Assembly: GCA_003225335.1 (NCBI GenBank)
Contig: QHZE01000460.1
Coordinates: 1-54,357 of the forward strand
Direction: 5' to 3'
Source of the DNA: Acidobacteriota bacterium
GTDB lineage: Bacteria > Acidobacteriota > UBA6911
DNA length: 54,357 nt
The notes beneath the pieces are model-generated. The model was given only the letters and a program-made list of their open reading frames with translations. It searched no databases and had not been told where the DNA came from. This document shows, one piece after another, positions 3,609-51,247 of this stretch (its first letter is position 1; each line of letters begins with the position of its first letter). A program made the position numbers and the translations under genes.

Positions 3609-3790
3609 AAACCACCGATGAACACAGATGAACACAGAGCAACGCAGCCGCAACCCAAAAAATCTCACCACGAAGACACGAAGAAATCCTTTGCGATTCT
3701 TCGCGTCTTCGTGTCTTCGTGGTGAATAGGATGGAATTTGCAGTCGTGCAATTTGTCATTTTTCATTTGTCATTGGTCATTGTTCATTCG
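3609..3790. repeat. Composite intergenic repeat, modules A (accaccgatgaacacag) - linker - B (caccacgaagacacgaag IR) - C (tttgtcatttttcatttgtcattggtcatt)
   Basis: Direct reading; the modules recur in the same relative order at 7060-7240 and 30450-30630 (inverted). Confidence 0.8.
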
Positions 3791-16032: not shown

Positions 16033-17025
16033 CTAGGATATGATGGCGCCTTTTACCAAGCGCCCCACATGGAACTCGAGCTTGCCGTCCCCCACCTCCA
16101 CATGTATCACTTCGTTGGGATCCAGCCCCTTTTCGGCAATCATGCTCGCCAGCGGGTACTCCAGATATTCGCGGACCGCACGGCGCAGCGGCCGTGCCCC
16201 GTAGCGAAGGTTCGTACCGCGCTCGATCAGGAATTTCTTGGATGGGTCGGATATGACCGTTCCGACGCCGGCCATGGCGAGGCGGGCGCGCGTGTCCAGC
16301 AAGAACTTGTCCAGTATAGCCAGCAGATGCTCTTCCTTTAGCCGGTTAAAGGTAATGATTTCGTCGATCCGGTTGATGAACTCCGGGCTGAAGAAATCCT
16401 CGACGGCCCCGATGCAGACGGTCTGGATCTTGGCATCCGCAGAATCCTGATCCAGTTCCTCGAACTTATGACTGGGCGGGCTGAATCCGATGACGGCATT
16501 CTTGGTAATGTCGTCCACCTCCTTGGCGCATACGTTGCTGGTCATCATGATAAAGCAGTTTCTGAAGGTAAGATCTACGGCCCGCCCGGTCTTCAGTTCG
16601 CCGCGCTCCAGGATCTGGAGAAGGAGGTCGTAGAAAGCGCGATCCGCCTTCTCTAACTCCTCAAAAATCACAATCGTGAGCTTTCTGTCCAGTTTTTCCT
16701 GGGTCAGAAACGGAGGCTGTTCGTGCCCCACATACCCTGGAGGCGCGCCCACGAGCTTGGCTACGTCGTGGGGATTCTTGAACTCGGTGCAGTTAACTGC
16801 CACAACTTCGTTCTCATCGCCGTGCAATACCTTGGCCAGGGAACGGCCGATCTGGCTTTTACCAGTCCCGGTGGGCCCCAGGAAGAGAAAGGTCCCGAGG
16901 GGACGCCGCGGGTCGCAGATTCCAAGATCGGCAACCATTACAGCCCGCACTACCGCGTCTATGGCACGGTCCTGGCCAATGATCTCTTTTCTCATCTGTT
17001 CGCGGAGTTCCTGAGCCTTAAGCAC
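16033..17025 (-). CDS. Single-AAA module Clp-like ATPase (AAA_2 / ClpB D2-like)
   Basis: GPTGTGKS Walker A; VIFEELEKADRAFYDLLLQIL Walker B region; FSPEFINRIDEIITFNRL; NLRYGARPLRRAVREYLEYPLA sensor 2; GTG start at 17025. Confidence 0.85.
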   Translation of the reverse strand: MLKAQELREQMRKEIIGQDRAIDAVVRAVMVADLGICDPRRPLGTFLFLGPTGTGKSQIGRSLAKVLHGDENEVVAVNCTEFKNPHDVAKLVGAPPGYVGHEQPPFLTQEKLDRKLTIVIFEELEKADRAFYDLLLQILERGELKTGRAVDLTFRNCFIMMTSNVCAKEVDDITKNAVIGFSPPSHKFEELDQDSADAKIQTVCIGAVEDFFSPEFINRIDEIITFNRLKEEHLLAILDKFLLDTRARLAMAGVGTVISDPSKKFLIERGTNLRYGARPLRRAVREYLEYPLASMIAEKGLDPNEVIHVEVGDGKLEFHVGRLVKGAIIS

Positions 17026-17323
17026 GGTGCCTCCCTTCGCGCGTTCTGGAACGCTATTATAGATTACGCAAAACAACAAAAGGTTTCCGAATCTGATGTT
17101 TGGAGCTCGGTGAAGACCGCAGCCCGAAGGCCAAACACCCCACACCTTTTGAAGCATTGCTTTGAATGTGCTCCGATCAAGTCCTGATGGAACACAGCAG
17201 GCAGGGATGCACCGAAATTACACGGTAACCCGGAAACGGAAGCTCCGTGTGCACCCGTGCCTATAGTTCATATCGGCGCGAGGCCCAAAAGCATTTCGAT
17301 GCCGTGGAGAAATATGCTAGCTT

Positions 17324-17592
17324 AGGGTCTGTAACGAAATAATCTGAGCACTTTGCTGCTGGCCCCCAGGCCCGCTGGCGAGGCGCGAGCGACGAGCAAT
17401 ACCCGGTGCGGTATGTGAGGAGCGAGCAACAAAGCCTGCGGGCCGCAGCCCGAAGCGGTGCGGCGGCGAAGGGCGCGTATCGGCGTTGTTACCGCTCCTC
17501 GACGATGTCCGACATCGACTGCGTCGCGGCGGCTCGCATCTGCCCGCCCGGCGCTCGCGACAAAGTGTTCCTATTATTTCGTTACAGACCCT
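17324..17592. mobile_element. MITE-like element, 269 bp, perfect 20-bp terminal inverted repeats
   Basis: Left AGGGTCTGTAACGAAATAAT (17324-17343), right ATTATTTCGTTACAGACCCT (17573-17592). Similarity extends to 32 bp with 3 mismatches (CTGAGCACTTTG vs AGGAACACTTTG). No plausible transposase inside. Confidence 0.7.
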
Positions 17593-17613
17593 CACCGTTC
17601 GCGCTTTGGGCCT

Positions 17614-18915
17614 ATGGAACAAAAGCCTCTCACTACGCTCCCCGGAACTCGGGATATCCTACCGGTTGAGATCCCGCGCTGGCACCTGGTTGAAGACCGC
17701 GCGCGGCAGGTGCTCGCTCTTTACGGGTTTCAGGAAATCAGGACCCCACTGCTCGAGGCGACAGAGCTCTTCGCTCGCGGCATTGGCGGCGACACGGACA
17801 TCGTGGGCAAGGAGATGTACACGTTTACCGACCAGGGAGGAACTTCGATCACCCTGCGTCCGGAAGTCACGGCGTCGGTGGTTCGGGCCTATACAGAGCA
17901 CCATATGTACCGGGGCGGCGGCATTACAAAACTTTACTATATCGGGCCGATGTTTCGTCATGAGAAGAAGCAAAAAGGGCGCTGGCGGCAGTTTTACCAG
18001 ATTGGCGCGGAGGTCCTGGGATCGGACGATCCCGCCGTCGAGGCGGAGGTGATCGAGATGATCCTCCGGCTTCTGGAACAGCTCCAGGTCGAAGCGAGAC
18101 TTCTCATAAACTCCGTTGGGGACCGTAACTGCCGGCCCGGTTTCATCGCAATACTCAAAGAGGCAATAAGTCAAGACCTGGGACGGTTCTGCGATGATTG
18201 CCGCAGGCGGGCTCAGACGAACACCCTGCGGGTTCTCGACTGCAAGGTGGAAAGCTGCCAGCCCTACATTAACCGGCTTCCGCGGATCACGGATCACCTG
18301 TGCCGGGAGTGCTCCGAGCATTTTCAGAAGTTCCAGGACCATCTCAGGGAGGCGGGCATCCGTTACGAGATCGTCCCAAGGCTCGTACGCGGTCTGGACT
18401 ATTACGTACGCACCGCCTTCGAGATGGTTAGCGGGGAACTGGGCTCTCAGAACGCTCTGGTCGGTGGAGGCAGGTACGACGGGCTTTCCGAGGTGCTGGG
18501 GGGGCCTCCGGTTCAGGGTTTCGGCTTTGCGCTGGGTCTGGATCGGCTGGTTATGATCCTTCCGGACAGTCTGGCCGAAGCTTCAGTCGACAGGCCGGAA
18601 GTGTACCTGGTGTATTTGTCCGATGAGGCCTTGAAGGCCGCCATCTCGATAGCTCGCCTGCTAAGGAGACAGGGCGTCCGCTGTCACCTGGAATTTGGGG
18701 CAGGGAGCCTCAAGAGCCAGATGCGGATGGCCAACAGAGTGGGTGCGAGGCACGTCCTGATCATCGGGCAGGATGAACTGGCCAAGGAACGATACTCTCT
18801 CAAGAGGATGGAAGACTCCAAACAATGGGAGGTCTCCCTCCCCGAATTGTCCCAATACCTGCAATCTCTGCCCGCCGCAGCCAGGAAGAATCCGTCGTCG
18901 ACCAATGACAAATGA
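17614..18915 (+). CDS. hisS: Histidyl-tRNA synthetase
   Basis: LPGTRDILPVEIPRWHLVED; GTSITLRPEVTASVVRAY; YYIGPMFRHEKKQKGRWRQFYQIGAEVLG; GGGRYDGL; FGFALGLDRL. Confidence 0.95.
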   Translation: MEQKPLTTLPGTRDILPVEIPRWHLVEDRARQVLALYGFQEIRTPLLEATELFARGIGGDTDIVGKEMYTFTDQGGTSITLRPEVTASVVRAYTEHHMYRGGGITKLYYIGPMFRHEKKQKGRWRQFYQIGAEVLGSDDPAVEAEVIEMILRLLEQLQVEARLLINSVGDRNCRPGFIAILKEAISQDLGRFCDDCRRRAQTNTLRVLDCKVESCQPYINRLPRITDHLCRECSEHFQKFQDHLREAGIRYEIVPRLVRGLDYYVRTAFEMVSGELGSQNALVGGGRYDGLSEVLGGPPVQGFGFALGLDRLVMILPDSLAEASVDRPEVYLVYLSDEALKAAISIARLLRRQGVRCHLEFGAGSLKSQMRMANRVGARHVLIIGQDELAKERYSLKRMEDSKQWEVSLPELSQYLQSLPAAARKNPSSTNDK

Positions 18916-19020: not shown

Positions 19021-20880
19021 ATGAGCAAGATCAAGGTCCTGCCCGAGACCCTTGCCAATAAGATCGCGGCAGGGGAAATCGTGGAACGGCCGGCTTCCGT
19101 GGTAAAGGAGCTGCTCGAGAATTCCGTCGATGCCGGCGCCGGCTCGGTCGCCGCGGCAGTGCAGTCCGGAGGCAAGCGCCTGCTCCAGGTGCGAGATGAC
19201 GGCGAAGGGATGACCCAGGACGATGCCATCCTCGCCTTCGAGCATCACGCCACCAGCAAACTGCAGACCGCGGAAGACCTCAATGCCATCGCAACGCTCG
19301 GGTTCCGCGGCGAGGCATTGCCGTCCATGGCTTCCATATCCCGATTGGTTCTCAGGACCCGCCATCCTTCCGATCCGGCGGCGGCGGGAACGGAAGTCGA
19401 AATTCAGGGGGGCACGCTGCGATCTGTTAAGACCGTCCCTTGGGAGAAGGGGACTGAAGTCACGGTCCGGGACCTCTTTTTCAACGTGCCTGCGCGCAGG
19501 AAGTTTCTGCGCTCCAACGATACGGAGCTTGGACACATTACCAGGCTCGTAACCCACTATGCCCTGGCCCACCCCGAGATGCGCTTCTCTCTTGAGAGCG
19601 ACGGGCGCGCGCTGTTCGATGTGGTCCCTGTGCCCACGTTGAAGGACAGGATTTACCAACTCTTTGGCGAGGGTTTCCTGGAGAATCTCGTGGAGGTCTC
19701 CGGCCGCGCGGGAAATGTTGAGGTCTATGGCTTCAGCTCGCGGCCGCATGAGCAGAAAACGAATCCGTACTCGCAGTTCTTCTACGTAAATCGCCGCATG
19801 GTGCGGGACAAGTTGATCGCAAGCGCCGTGCGCCAAGCCTACCGGAATTGCATTCCTGCCTCTGCGTATCCGGTCGTGCTTCTCTTCGTGCAGTTGCCCT
19901 TTGACGAGGTGGATGTCAACGCGCATCCGGCCAAGACCGAGATCCGCTTCAGACAGCAGGGGCTCGTCCACGATCTGATTCTGGATGCGATCCAGCGCGC
20001 GCTGGTCGGGAGTAAATCGATTCCGATTTACGAGCATCGCAGCGATGCGTGGCAGGAGGCTCCGATTCCTGGAAGCAATTTCCCGGGGAGCCCCTGGACC
20101 ACCAGGTCGGCTCCGGAATCCACACCATTTGATTTCACGCCGCCCAGTGCGGCCGCCGATCCATTCCAACGGGCTTTCAACTATCCCTTCCGAGATGAAA
20201 CTTCGGCTCCTCCTGAGTATCCGCAGGACCACCACGGTTTGCGCATACGGCCCGACATGCTGCTGGGAGCGCCCACCGAACTTGCTGCGAGTCCATTCGA
20301 TTTGTCGGGAGCCCGGATTCTCGGGCAGATCCATGACAGCTATGTCATCGCAAATGACAGCCGGGGCCTGTTGATCATCGATCAGCACGTGGCCCACGAA
20401 CGCATTCTCTACGAAAAACACGCTCAAGCTGTTCGACAGCAGTCCGTCGAGGTCCAGGGGTTGCTCGTACCCGTCGCGCTCGAGCTGCCTCCGCATCAAA
20501 CCGTCATTCTAGATCGATCTCTTCCGGAGCTCCGGAGGAGCGGTTTCCAGGTGGAACGGTTCGGGGGCAATTCGATTCTCGTCCGGTCTGTGCCCGCCGT
20601 CGCAAAGGATTACGACTGCCAGAAGGTGTTGTCGGAGATCCTTGAGGGGTTGGAGTCGGAGGACAGAACCTTGGATGTGGATCGCATCCGCGACAGGATC
20701 GCCGTCAGCATGGCCTGCAGGGGTGCAATTAAGGTCCATATGCCCCTGGCTATGGAAAAGATGCAGTGGTTGCTCGACGAACTGTGCAAGACAAAGATTC
20801 CGACGAATTGCCCGCACGGCAGGCCCATCATTCTTCGATTCAGCTTGTACGAGATCGAAAGAAACTTCGGCCGGATCTGA
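19021..20880 (+). CDS. mutL: DNA mismatch repair protein MutL
   Basis: LANKIAAGEIVERPASVVKELLENSVDAGA; DDGEGM; TLGFRGEALPSMASIS; C-terminal ACRGAIKVHMPL and CPHGRPI. Confidence 0.96.
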   Translation: MSKIKVLPETLANKIAAGEIVERPASVVKELLENSVDAGAGSVAAAVQSGGKRLLQVRDDGEGMTQDDAILAFEHHATSKLQTAEDLNAIATLGFRGEALPSMASISRLVLRTRHPSDPAAAGTEVEIQGGTLRSVKTVPWEKGTEVTVRDLFFNVPARRKFLRSNDTELGHITRLVTHYALAHPEMRFSLESDGRALFDVVPVPTLKDRIYQLFGEGFLENLVEVSGRAGNVEVYGFSSRPHEQKTNPYSQFFYVNRRMVRDKLIASAVRQAYRNCIPASAYPVVLLFVQLPFDEVDVNAHPAKTEIRFRQQGLVHDLILDAIQRALVGSKSIPIYEHRSDAWQEAPIPGSNFPGSPWTTRSAPESTPFDFTPPSAAADPFQRAFNYPFRDETSAPPEYPQDHHGLRIRPDMLLGAPTELAASPFDLSGARILGQIHDSYVIANDSRGLLIIDQHVAHERILYEKHAQAVRQQSVEVQGLLVPVALELPPHQTVILDRSLPELRRSGFQVERFGGNSILVRSVPAVAKDYDCQKVLSEILEGLESEDRTLDVDRIRDRIAVSMACRGAIKVHMPLAMEKMQWLLDELCKTKIPTNCPHGRPIILRFSLYEIERNFGRI

Positions 20881-20963
20881 TTGATTTCGGATTGCGGATT
20901 TCGGATTGTCGTAATCGAAGCCGTCTACTAATTCCAAATCCGCAATCCGCAATCCGAAATCAA
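20881..20963. repeat. Near-perfect palindromic repeat, TTGATTTCGGATTGCGGATTTCGGATTG / CAATCCGCAATCCGAAATCAA, family D
   Basis: Direct reading; between the 3' ends of mutL (+) and accA (-). Confidence 0.8.
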
Positions 20964-20964
20964 T

Positions 20965-21927
20965 TCAAGGGGCGTAGAGTTTGTTAAGCCGCACAACGGC
21001 GCCCATGCTCCGAAACTTCTGATAACGCTGCTCGCGCAATTGCGCGCCCGTCATGCCCAAGAGCGATTCCAGCGCCGGCCTCAGCTTGCCGTCCAGCATC
21101 TCCGCGGCGGCTTTGTGGTCCGTCTGTGCGCCGGCCGGGGGCTCCGGTACGATCTCATCGATGATGTGAAATTCCTGGAGGTCCGGAGCCGTCAACTTGA
21201 GGGCCTCCGCCGCCGCCTCCACATGGTCCTGGTCCTTCCATAGAATCGCGGAGCATCCCTCGGGAGTAATGACCGTGTAGACGGCGTTTTCCATCATCAG
21301 GATGTGGTTTCCGACGCCGATTCCCAGCGCTCCGCCGCTACCGCCTTCTCCAATGATACAGACAATCACAGGGACCGCGAGGCGGTTCATCTCGCGAAGG
21401 TTGTGCGCAATGGCTTCGGCCTGGCCCCTTTCTTCCGCCCCGACGCTGGGATAGGCGCCCGGCGTGTCAATGAAAGCGATGATGGGGCGCGAGAATTTCT
21501 CCGCGAGCTTCATGGCCCGCAGCGCCTTGCGATAACCTTCCGGTTGGGCGTAACCGAAATTGCGATACTGGCGCTGCTTCAGGTCGCGTCCTTTCTGATG
21601 TCCCACGACCATGACGTGATGCCCATGATAGCGCGCCATGCCGGCGACTATAGCCGGGTCGTCGCCAAAACGCCGGTCCCCGTGAATTTCTGAGAAGTCC
21701 TGAAAGAGGCGCTCCACATAGTCGAGCGTATAGGGGCGTTGCTCGTGCCGGGCCAGCAGCGTGCGCTCCCAGGCCTTGCTGCCGGGACGGATTGCTTCCC
21801 TGAGCCGCCGAAGCTCTGCCCGAAGCCGCTCGACTTCGGACCCCCGGCTGGAGGGCCGTTCCCGGGCCAGACGGTCGATGTCGGATTCGAGGGACCGTAT
21901 CTTGTCTGCTATTTCGTCGTCACTCAT
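20965..21927 (-). CDS. accA: Acetyl-CoA carboxylase carboxyltransferase subunit alpha
   Basis: RPYTLDYVERLFQDFSEIHGDRRFGDDPAIVAG; MKLAEKFSRPIIAFIDTPGAYPSVGAEERGQAEAIAHNL; EGGSGGALGIGVGN; MENAVYTVITPEGCSAILWKD. Confidence 0.95.
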   Translation of the reverse strand: MSDDEIADKIRSLESDIDRLARERPSSRGSEVERLRAELRRLREAIRPGSKAWERTLLARHEQRPYTLDYVERLFQDFSEIHGDRRFGDDPAIVAGMARYHGHHVMVVGHQKGRDLKQRQYRNFGYAQPEGYRKALRAMKLAEKFSRPIIAFIDTPGAYPSVGAEERGQAEAIAHNLREMNRLAVPVIVCIIGEGGSGGALGIGVGNHILMMENAVYTVITPEGCSAILWKDQDHVEAAAEALKLTAPDLQEFHIIDEIVPEPPAGAQTDHKAAAEMLDGKLRPALESLLGMTGAQLREQRYQKFRSMGAVVRLNKLYAP

Positions 21928-47557: not shown

Positions 47558-47716
47558 ATGGCGGATCTCCGATTGCGGATTGCGGATTGCGGCTTTGGCT
47601 TTGAATTGCGGACTGCCGATTTGGAAGCACCTTTGAATGGCGGATTTTGGAAATAATGGACAGCTGAGACAATCCGCAATCCGCAATCGGCAATCCGAAA
47701 TCGAAAATCCGCAATT
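47547..47716. repeat. Family D repeat cluster with a 20-nt direct repeat (AGCACCTTTGAATGGCGGAT) overlapping the MFS stop codon
   Basis: Copies at 47547-47566 and 47626-47645; attcggattgcgg-type arms in both orientations. Confidence 0.8.
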
Positions 47717-50155: not shown

Positions 50156-50220
50156 ATGAAACCACAGATGAACACAGATAAATACGGATCGGCGTCCGTC
50201 TGTGTTCATCTGTGGTTTCG
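50156..50220. repeat. Module-A palindrome (gaaaccacagatgaacacagataaatacgga...ccgtctgtgttcatctgtggtttc)
   Basis: Direct reading, between htrA and MBL genes. Confidence 0.8.
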
Positions 50221-50221
50221 C

Positions 50222-51247
50222 ATGCTTCGACCGGTCGGCTTCAGGCTCCTTTGTTTCGAGCTCCTTTTCTTCGGGCTCCTGACGCAACATGCGGGAAGTG
50301 GCGCCTACCAGGGCGAGGATGGCGAAGTTCGTAAACTCGCAGAGGGAGTTTACGTTCGCATCGCGGCCGCGGATCAGAGCATCGTCAGCAATGCCGGTTT
50401 TGTAGAGCTCGATAATTCGGTCCTCGTCTTTGACACGCACTTCACGCTGGAGGCCGGGCAGTCATTGCTGGCCGCGATCCAAAAGATTACAACCAAGCCG
50501 GTCCGCTATTTGGTAAACAGTCACTTTCATCCCGATCACACTCACGGCAATCAATCGTTCGCAGGGCCCGTCCACATAATTGCGACAACGAACGCGCGTC
50601 GCGACGTGGTGCAGCGCGATCTTCCCGCAATGAACCGCACACTTGGCATTGCGCAAGCACAGATCGAGAAGATGAAGAAAGACCTGATCGCGACCAAGGA
50701 CCCGGCGCAGCAAGCGGGTCTTCGCGCGCAAATCCAGCAGCACCAGAAATTCCTGGATAGAATGACAGGCCTGAAGATTCTTCCTCCGGTCCTGGGGGTG
50801 GAAGACAGTCTCGATGTAAACGACACCGTGCGGCCGGCCCGGCTGCTATACCTGGGCAAGGGTCACACCGACGGCGACCTGGTTTTATATCTGCCCAAGG
50901 AGAAGATCGCCTTTGTGGGCGACCTCTTCTTTAACTCTGCGCTTCCCAATACGCAGGATGCCTTTCTGCTCGAATGGATGCGGACGCTGGCCGAGTTGCT
51001 GAAGCTCGACGCCGAGACTTTTGTTCCCGGTCACGGGCCCGTGGGCACAAAAAGCGAGGTGAAAGACTTCCTGAAGTATCTGGAAGAGCTAAAAGAGTGG
51101 GTGGAACCGCGTGTGACGGAAGGGGCTGCCATGGAGCAGGTTTTGCGCGACGTGAAACTTCCGCCCAAGTATTCGTCCTACAGTTATCAGTATTTTTTCC
51201 CCGCCAACCTGCAAAAGATGTATTCGGAGCTTCGGGCCGCGAAGTAG
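50222..51247 (+). CDS. MBL-fold metallo-hydrolase, secreted
   Basis: VRYLVNSHFHPDHTHGNQSF (HxHxDH-like); LGKGHTDGDLVLYLPKEKIAFVGDLFF; FVPGHGPVG. Start moved downstream of the repeat. Confidence 0.88.
   Translation: MLRPVGFRLLCFELLFFGLLTQHAGSGAYQGEDGEVRKLAEGVYVRIAAADQSIVSNAGFVELDNSVLVFDTHFTLEAGQSLLAAIQKITTKPVRYLVNSHFHPDHTHGNQSFAGPVHIIATTNARRDVVQRDLPAMNRTLGIAQAQIEKMKKDLIATKDPAQQAGLRAQIQQHQKFLDRMTGLKILPPVLGVEDSLDVNDTVRPARLLYLGKGHTDGDLVLYLPKEKIAFVGDLFFNSALPNTQDAFLLEWMRTLAELLKLDAETFVPGHGPVGTKSEVKDFLKYLEELKEWVEPRVTEGAAMEQVLRDVKLPPKYSSYSYQYFFPANLQKMYSELRAAK

Follow-up and report, generated by a model that had tools for sequence, protein, structure and literature searches.

The 269-bp noncoding segment that lies immediately before the histidyl-tRNA synthetase gene hisS on this acidobacterial contig (positions 17324 to 17592 of the window, i.e., of the whole stretch of 54,357 nucleotides analyzed) is bordered on both sides by inverted repeats, which raises the question of whether it is a mobile element that landed there or a part of the gene that it precedes. 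A first-pass annotation, made from the sequence alone, had called it MITE-like, and this interpretation was supported by dispersed copies, by shared ends, and by target-site duplications. The segment is a genuine MITE, one of dozens of copies in this genome.

Copies and target sites of the element

The borders, AGGGTCTGTAACGAAATAAT at 17324 to 17343 (plus strand) and ATTATTTCGTTACAGACCCT at 17573 to 17592 (minus strand), form the left and right terminal inverted repeats (TIRs) and are identical at 20/20 positions; the identity extends toward the interior at 29/32 and then 35/43 positions, bearing out both the perfect 20-bp repeats and the 29/32 extension claimed earlier. At up to three mismatches, 0.01 occurrences of the 19-mer of these ends are expected by chance in the window, and the 19-mer was found exactly at the two ends. 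The palindrome that had been pointed out in the interior, CGATGTCCGACATCG, is indeed present and forms the hairpin at the tip of a conserved structure. In agreement with the first-pass annotation, the element contains no transposase ORF; nor was any credible coding ORF found that is limited to it. As a single strand, the 269 nucleotides are predicted to fold end to end (−145.6 kcal/mol; z score, −6.8), while an Rfam search of the region returned 0 matches up to an E value of 1 and, with that, no known structured RNA family.

The suggested BLASTN search yielded at least 41 copies in the window's own genome (G000, an Acidobacteriota MAG of 7.54 Mb in 795 contigs, 96.7% complete and with 3.55% contamination), with 40 of 150 candidates scored, and a relaxed end pattern matched 167 ends, versus 1 for a reversed-pattern control. 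MAG assemblies lose repeats, so that these copy numbers are lower bounds and an autonomous partner may be absent from the assembly. Three end classes were distinguished in the genome: A (GGGTCTGTNACGAAATAAT), to which the window copy belongs, B (GGGCTCGCGCAGAAATAA), and C (GGGCCCGTCAGGAAATAAGG). With boundaries set as GGG...CCC, 42 elements, spanning 127 to 277 bp, were delimited in the fetched loci. Exactly identical 3-bp flanks, TTA or TAA, were observed at 31/42 of these (shuffled mean, 16.1; maximum, 25), and the insertion-site consensus is C-TWA-G (CTWAG-like), with a C before TWA in 31 and a G after it in 34 of the 42 cases. Per 19 positions, the two ends of one copy differ by 1.38 mismatches, versus 4.50 between copies. 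In light of these flanks, the earlier remark that there was no clear target-site duplication does not hold: the window copy has TTA on its left (17322 to 17324) and TCA, one substitution away from TTA and thus a decayed duplicate, on its right (17592 to 17594). Element junctions fell within open frames of at least 600 nucleotides less often than random positions did (56% versus 82%). In summary, the elements are shorter than 500 bp, have TIRs, lack a transposase of their own, are dispersed in multiple copies, and are flanked by target-site duplications, the features by which bacterial MITEs are recognized.

Two other origins for such repeats were considered. One would be that binning or assembly placed repeats from another organism's contigs in this genome, a thought invited by the number of contigs and by the contamination estimate; however, the window contig runs continuously from the adjacent AAA+ ATPase gene through the element into hisS and is syntenic with relatives, copies are found on dozens of contigs, and 80%-identical copies occur in two close relatives (G006 and G012), so that an artefact is the least probable of all explanations weighed here. 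The other would be that the elements are palindromes of the REP/REPIN type, moved by a RAYT (Y1) transposase. Their paired inverted hairpins and their bias away from long open frames would fit such a system, but the element has long TIRs, a 3-bp target-site duplication, and IS5-like ends, and this explanation is therefore very improbable. REPINs are not known for that combination.

Several further repeats were noted. In two relatives (G011 and G013), many contigs begin inside the element, so that assemblies in this family seem to be interrupted by it. Three loci in G006 (L215, L216, and L217) contain coreless palindromes of ~57 bp (TTAGGAGCCGTTACGAAATAA...ATTTCGTTACGGCTCCTTA) flanked by TTA to the left and right; these are apparently ends without an interior. 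Within the window, intergenic inverted repeats of GGATTGCGGATT-type units were seen at 20880 to 20977 and 47569 to 47703, and short inverted repeats (CACCACGAAGACACGAAGA... and AACCACAGATGAACACAGAT...) were seen at 3665 to 3738 and 50158 to 50232; units resembling GACGCGAAGA also border MITE copies, L012 and L028 among them.

The hisS locus with and without the element

The identity of hisS (17614 to 18915, plus strand) was confirmed by Pfam (PF13393; E value, 1e-45), and the earlier placement of the right element end 21 bp before its ATG at 17614 is correct. A HisS-like match was found in all 17 relatives searched, and the nearest named HisS relatives come from Acidobacteriota MAGs. On the other side of the element, a divergent gene on the minus strand (16033 to 17022) encodes an AAA+ ATPase with a ClpB-type C terminus (PF07724 and PF10431). 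This divergent pair is syntenic in three relatives (G003, G006, and G010; AAA proteins, 71 to 74% identical), in which the gap between the two genes measures 200 to 251 bp and is element free, versus 591 bp in the window. The empty-site comparison proposed in the first-pass annotation thus places the element's absence between the same two genes, although, with relatives only about 68% identical in HisS, the empty site is not base exact. The same annotation had named two signs that would speak for a regulatory stem rather than a MITE, namely, the absence of other copies and a conserved interior at orthologous loci. Copies were plentiful; the interior did prove to be conserved, but in dispersed mobile copies and not at hisS.

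These observations also bear on the idea that the segment is a hisS-specific regulatory leader, T-box-like or an attenuator, and not a mobile element. Its position directly upstream of a tRNA synthetase gene and its strong predicted fold would agree with such a role, but the copies elsewhere, the target-site duplications, the lack of an Rfam match, and the absence of the segment from the hisS upstream region of the inspected relatives make this highly unlikely, and as an origin of the segment it is refuted by the dispersed copies. A later co-option of the element as a hisS leader is possible.

How the MITE might have come to be transcribed with hisS is suggested by the sequence that it abuts. 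Directly before the left end lies TGCTAGCTT (17315 to 17323, plus strand), the counterpart of a TGCTANNAT-type motif found 32 to 52 bp upstream of hisS in seven of the nine same-family orthologues (shuffles: mean, 0.15; maximum, 2) and absent in the remaining two. When the element and one 3-bp copy are subtracted, the end of TGCTAGCTT at 17323 comes to stand ~29 bp from the ATG. We consider TGCTAGCTT a putative extended −10 of the hisS promoter; a simple scan of the region for sigma-70 promoters and terminators gave nothing above chance. Since the element directly follows this counterpart of the orthologues' pre-hisS motif, it probably forms the leader of the hisS mRNA, having been inserted downstream of the −10 region and ahead of the start codon. 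The hisS copy would then be a natural, if putative, case of an essential gene that is probably expressed via a long folded leader.

A hairpin core beside changing ends

A BLASTN search with the element revealed relatives in 19/60 genomes, mostly through the interior, in some cases in other families and with different ends. With R1, a covariance model of the right element half, this core was found in at least 59/297 sampled Acidobacteriota genomes, covering at least 32/166 genera and about 19 families, with up to 13 candidates scored per genome, and it is accompanied by no fewer than eight end types; besides classes A to C, the ends around cores include GGAGCCTGTCCGAGTAAT, GCAGGCTGCTGAAAAACTC, GCAGGCCGTGGTGAAAGTGTG, GCAGCCTGTGGTTAAAGTCA, and GTACCTCGTTTCATAAATACGG. 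In the window, the core corresponds to the right half of the interior (17456 to 17559, plus strand; 101.6 bits, the window copy being itself a member of the R1 training set). The left half (17357 to 17453, minus strand) was recovered as a weak second match to R1 (21.9 bits; E value, 0.035), and the two halves are homologous in other copies, the left being an inverted, diverged, and by now degenerate copy of the right hairpin unit. Outside the phylum, plasmid and phage collections gave no match to the core, and a search of viral contigs by core pattern gave none either; a literature search on acidobacterial MITEs returned nothing relevant.

In a MAFFT alignment of 32 cores, 21/29 predicted pairs change on both sides, i.e., in a compensatory manner, and 96.4% of the cells are paired. 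Cells with compensatory changes number 126, versus 37 in shuffled and 9 to 22 in slid controls, and the covariation score of 0.419 (versus 0.135 shuffled and at most 0.094 slid) is flattered by the derivation of the structure from the same 32-core alignment. The outer stem contains G-T and A-C cells in equal measure (14 versus 15), giving no support for a one-strand RNA, while the inner helices are rich in G-T (40 versus 1), mainly through one conserved column.

Could the dispersed units then be a structured ncRNA or cruciform module with a selected function of its own, picked up by successive IS5-type elements whose ends serve only as a vehicle? The spread of the core over families and end types and the excess of compensatory changes would both be expected of such a module. 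However, template-switch correction between the arms of an inverted repeat can also yield compensatory changes, the outer stem favors neither strand, the inner bias comes mostly from a single column, and the core has no match in Rfam. We regard this module as an unlikely, though by no means negligible, alternative to a MITE moved in trans. What we claim for the core is therefore a conserved pattern and not a function: selection on a cruciform, selection on an RNA, or arm-to-arm correction could have produced it.

The relationship between interiors and ends was resolved further within the window's own genome. Between classes, ends differ by 28 to 40% and interiors by 18 to 25%, while within classes the ends differ less than the interiors. 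A tree of the interiors, in which several unexpected positions could stem from the alignment, requires 5 changes of the end-class label, compared with a minimum of 10 after shuffling and with the 2 that three classes need at the very least. Because there are only five such changes, end exchange appears to be occasional rather than free, with class mostly following interior lineage and few switches. Two hybrid elements, L007 and L056, carry one class B end together with one class C or A end. The element is one of a phylum-wide set with a folded core in common, in which ends have been exchanged or have diverged.

MITEs are usually classified by their conserved ends, and their interiors are mostly taken as filler. 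Over the Acidobacteriota, the reverse pattern emerges, with a covarying hairpin core that persists beside its many end types. While a mobile MITE is a known kind of element, a conserved interior with changing ends is a new aspect. It poses a testable question: is the interior structure of a MITE under selection, be it for transposition, for tolerance by the host, or for a function as RNA, or is it merely kept by hairpin correction? More speculatively, and with a probability that we put well short of even, the element might descend from an ancient two-hairpin module of the Acidobacteriota, carried by successive IS5-type end sets and selected for its structure, either as RNA or as a cruciform. 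The conserved identity of the lineage would then reside in the interior rather than in the ends, and at hisS the module would now serve as the mRNA leader.

Mobilization and comparison with known systems

The full-length IS with exactly these ends that the first-pass annotation had proposed looking for was not found in this genome. A search of its 795 contigs for PF13586 and PF13359 revealed no such transposase, none of its three PF01609 genes has the element's ends, and no autonomous partner with class A, B, or C ends was found with these three families in this genome and its relatives. Long end-to-end intervals considered as candidate IS (e.g., contig C535, 8146 to 9903) turned out to consist of separate short elements. 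Elsewhere in the phylum, however, two IS5-family elements came to light. L289 (G008) is 1.3 kb long and encodes an NF033581 transposase (291 bits); its ends, GCAGG[AC]TGCTGAAAAA, correspond to the GCAGGCTGCTGAAAAA class of ends that core-bearing elements carry in three genomes (G054, G161, and G210), and its flanks have no clear duplication. L224 (G045) has the ends GAGCGTGTT[GT]AGAAATTA with TTA on both sides. The targets are of the TWA or CTAG type, as in IS5-derived elements. PIF/Harbinger elements, too, typically duplicate 3 bp, and their transposases have been analyzed together with those of IS5 (PMC2213677, PMC12730594). On the basis of the element's ends and its CTWAG-like target, we infer IS5-type transposition, and L289 and L224 make mobilization of this type likely; such a transposase would putatively act on the class A ends as well.

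We consider it very probable that the segment is a MITE, moved in trans by an IS5-type transposase and inserted just ahead of hisS. A DDE transposase of this type would recognize the ends of the nonautonomous DNA transposon, acting in trans, and would cut at GGG...CCC, with duplication of a 3-bp TTA or TAA at a CTWAG-like target. The window copy would have inserted between the −10 region of the hisS promoter and the start codon, its right duplicate having later changed to TCA. Provided that the old promoter remains in use, transcription would start at or inside the left end of the element, and the hisS mRNA would carry a leader of about 290 nucleotides that could fold over its full length into a single long hairpin. 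hisS may tolerate this leader, or its expression may be tuned by the structure or by cleavage with a double-strand RNase, as has been reported for Correia elements.

Among described systems, the IS5 family (NF033581 and NF033580) and PIF/Harbinger share with the element G-rich ends and a 3-bp TWA or CTAG-like target, and an IS5-family element of the phylum has the same end class as sister elements; unlike members of the IS5 family, the element lacks a transposase, and no IS5 element with class A ends was found. The Chunjie MITE of Geobacter uraniireducens, as far as it is summarized in PMC10969869, measures 178 to 235 bp and is present in dozens of mostly intergenic copies; conserved TIRs, direct repeats, one copy at an operon, and partial copies are common to both, whereas in our element conservation across a phylum is seen for the interior core but not for the ends. 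The defined core and the stable predicted fold of the whole transcript recall the QMITEs of Coxiella burnetii, for which cross-phylum conservation of the core is not among the features in the descriptions available (PMC5896051, PMC10969869). Finally, in the account given in PMC10969869, a Correia element of Neisseria is inserted just downstream of the mtrCDE promoter, and RNase III cleaves at its TIRs. Although the elements are different, the hisS locus would, putatively, present the same arrangement: a MITE right after a promoter, within the mRNA and with foldable TIRs.
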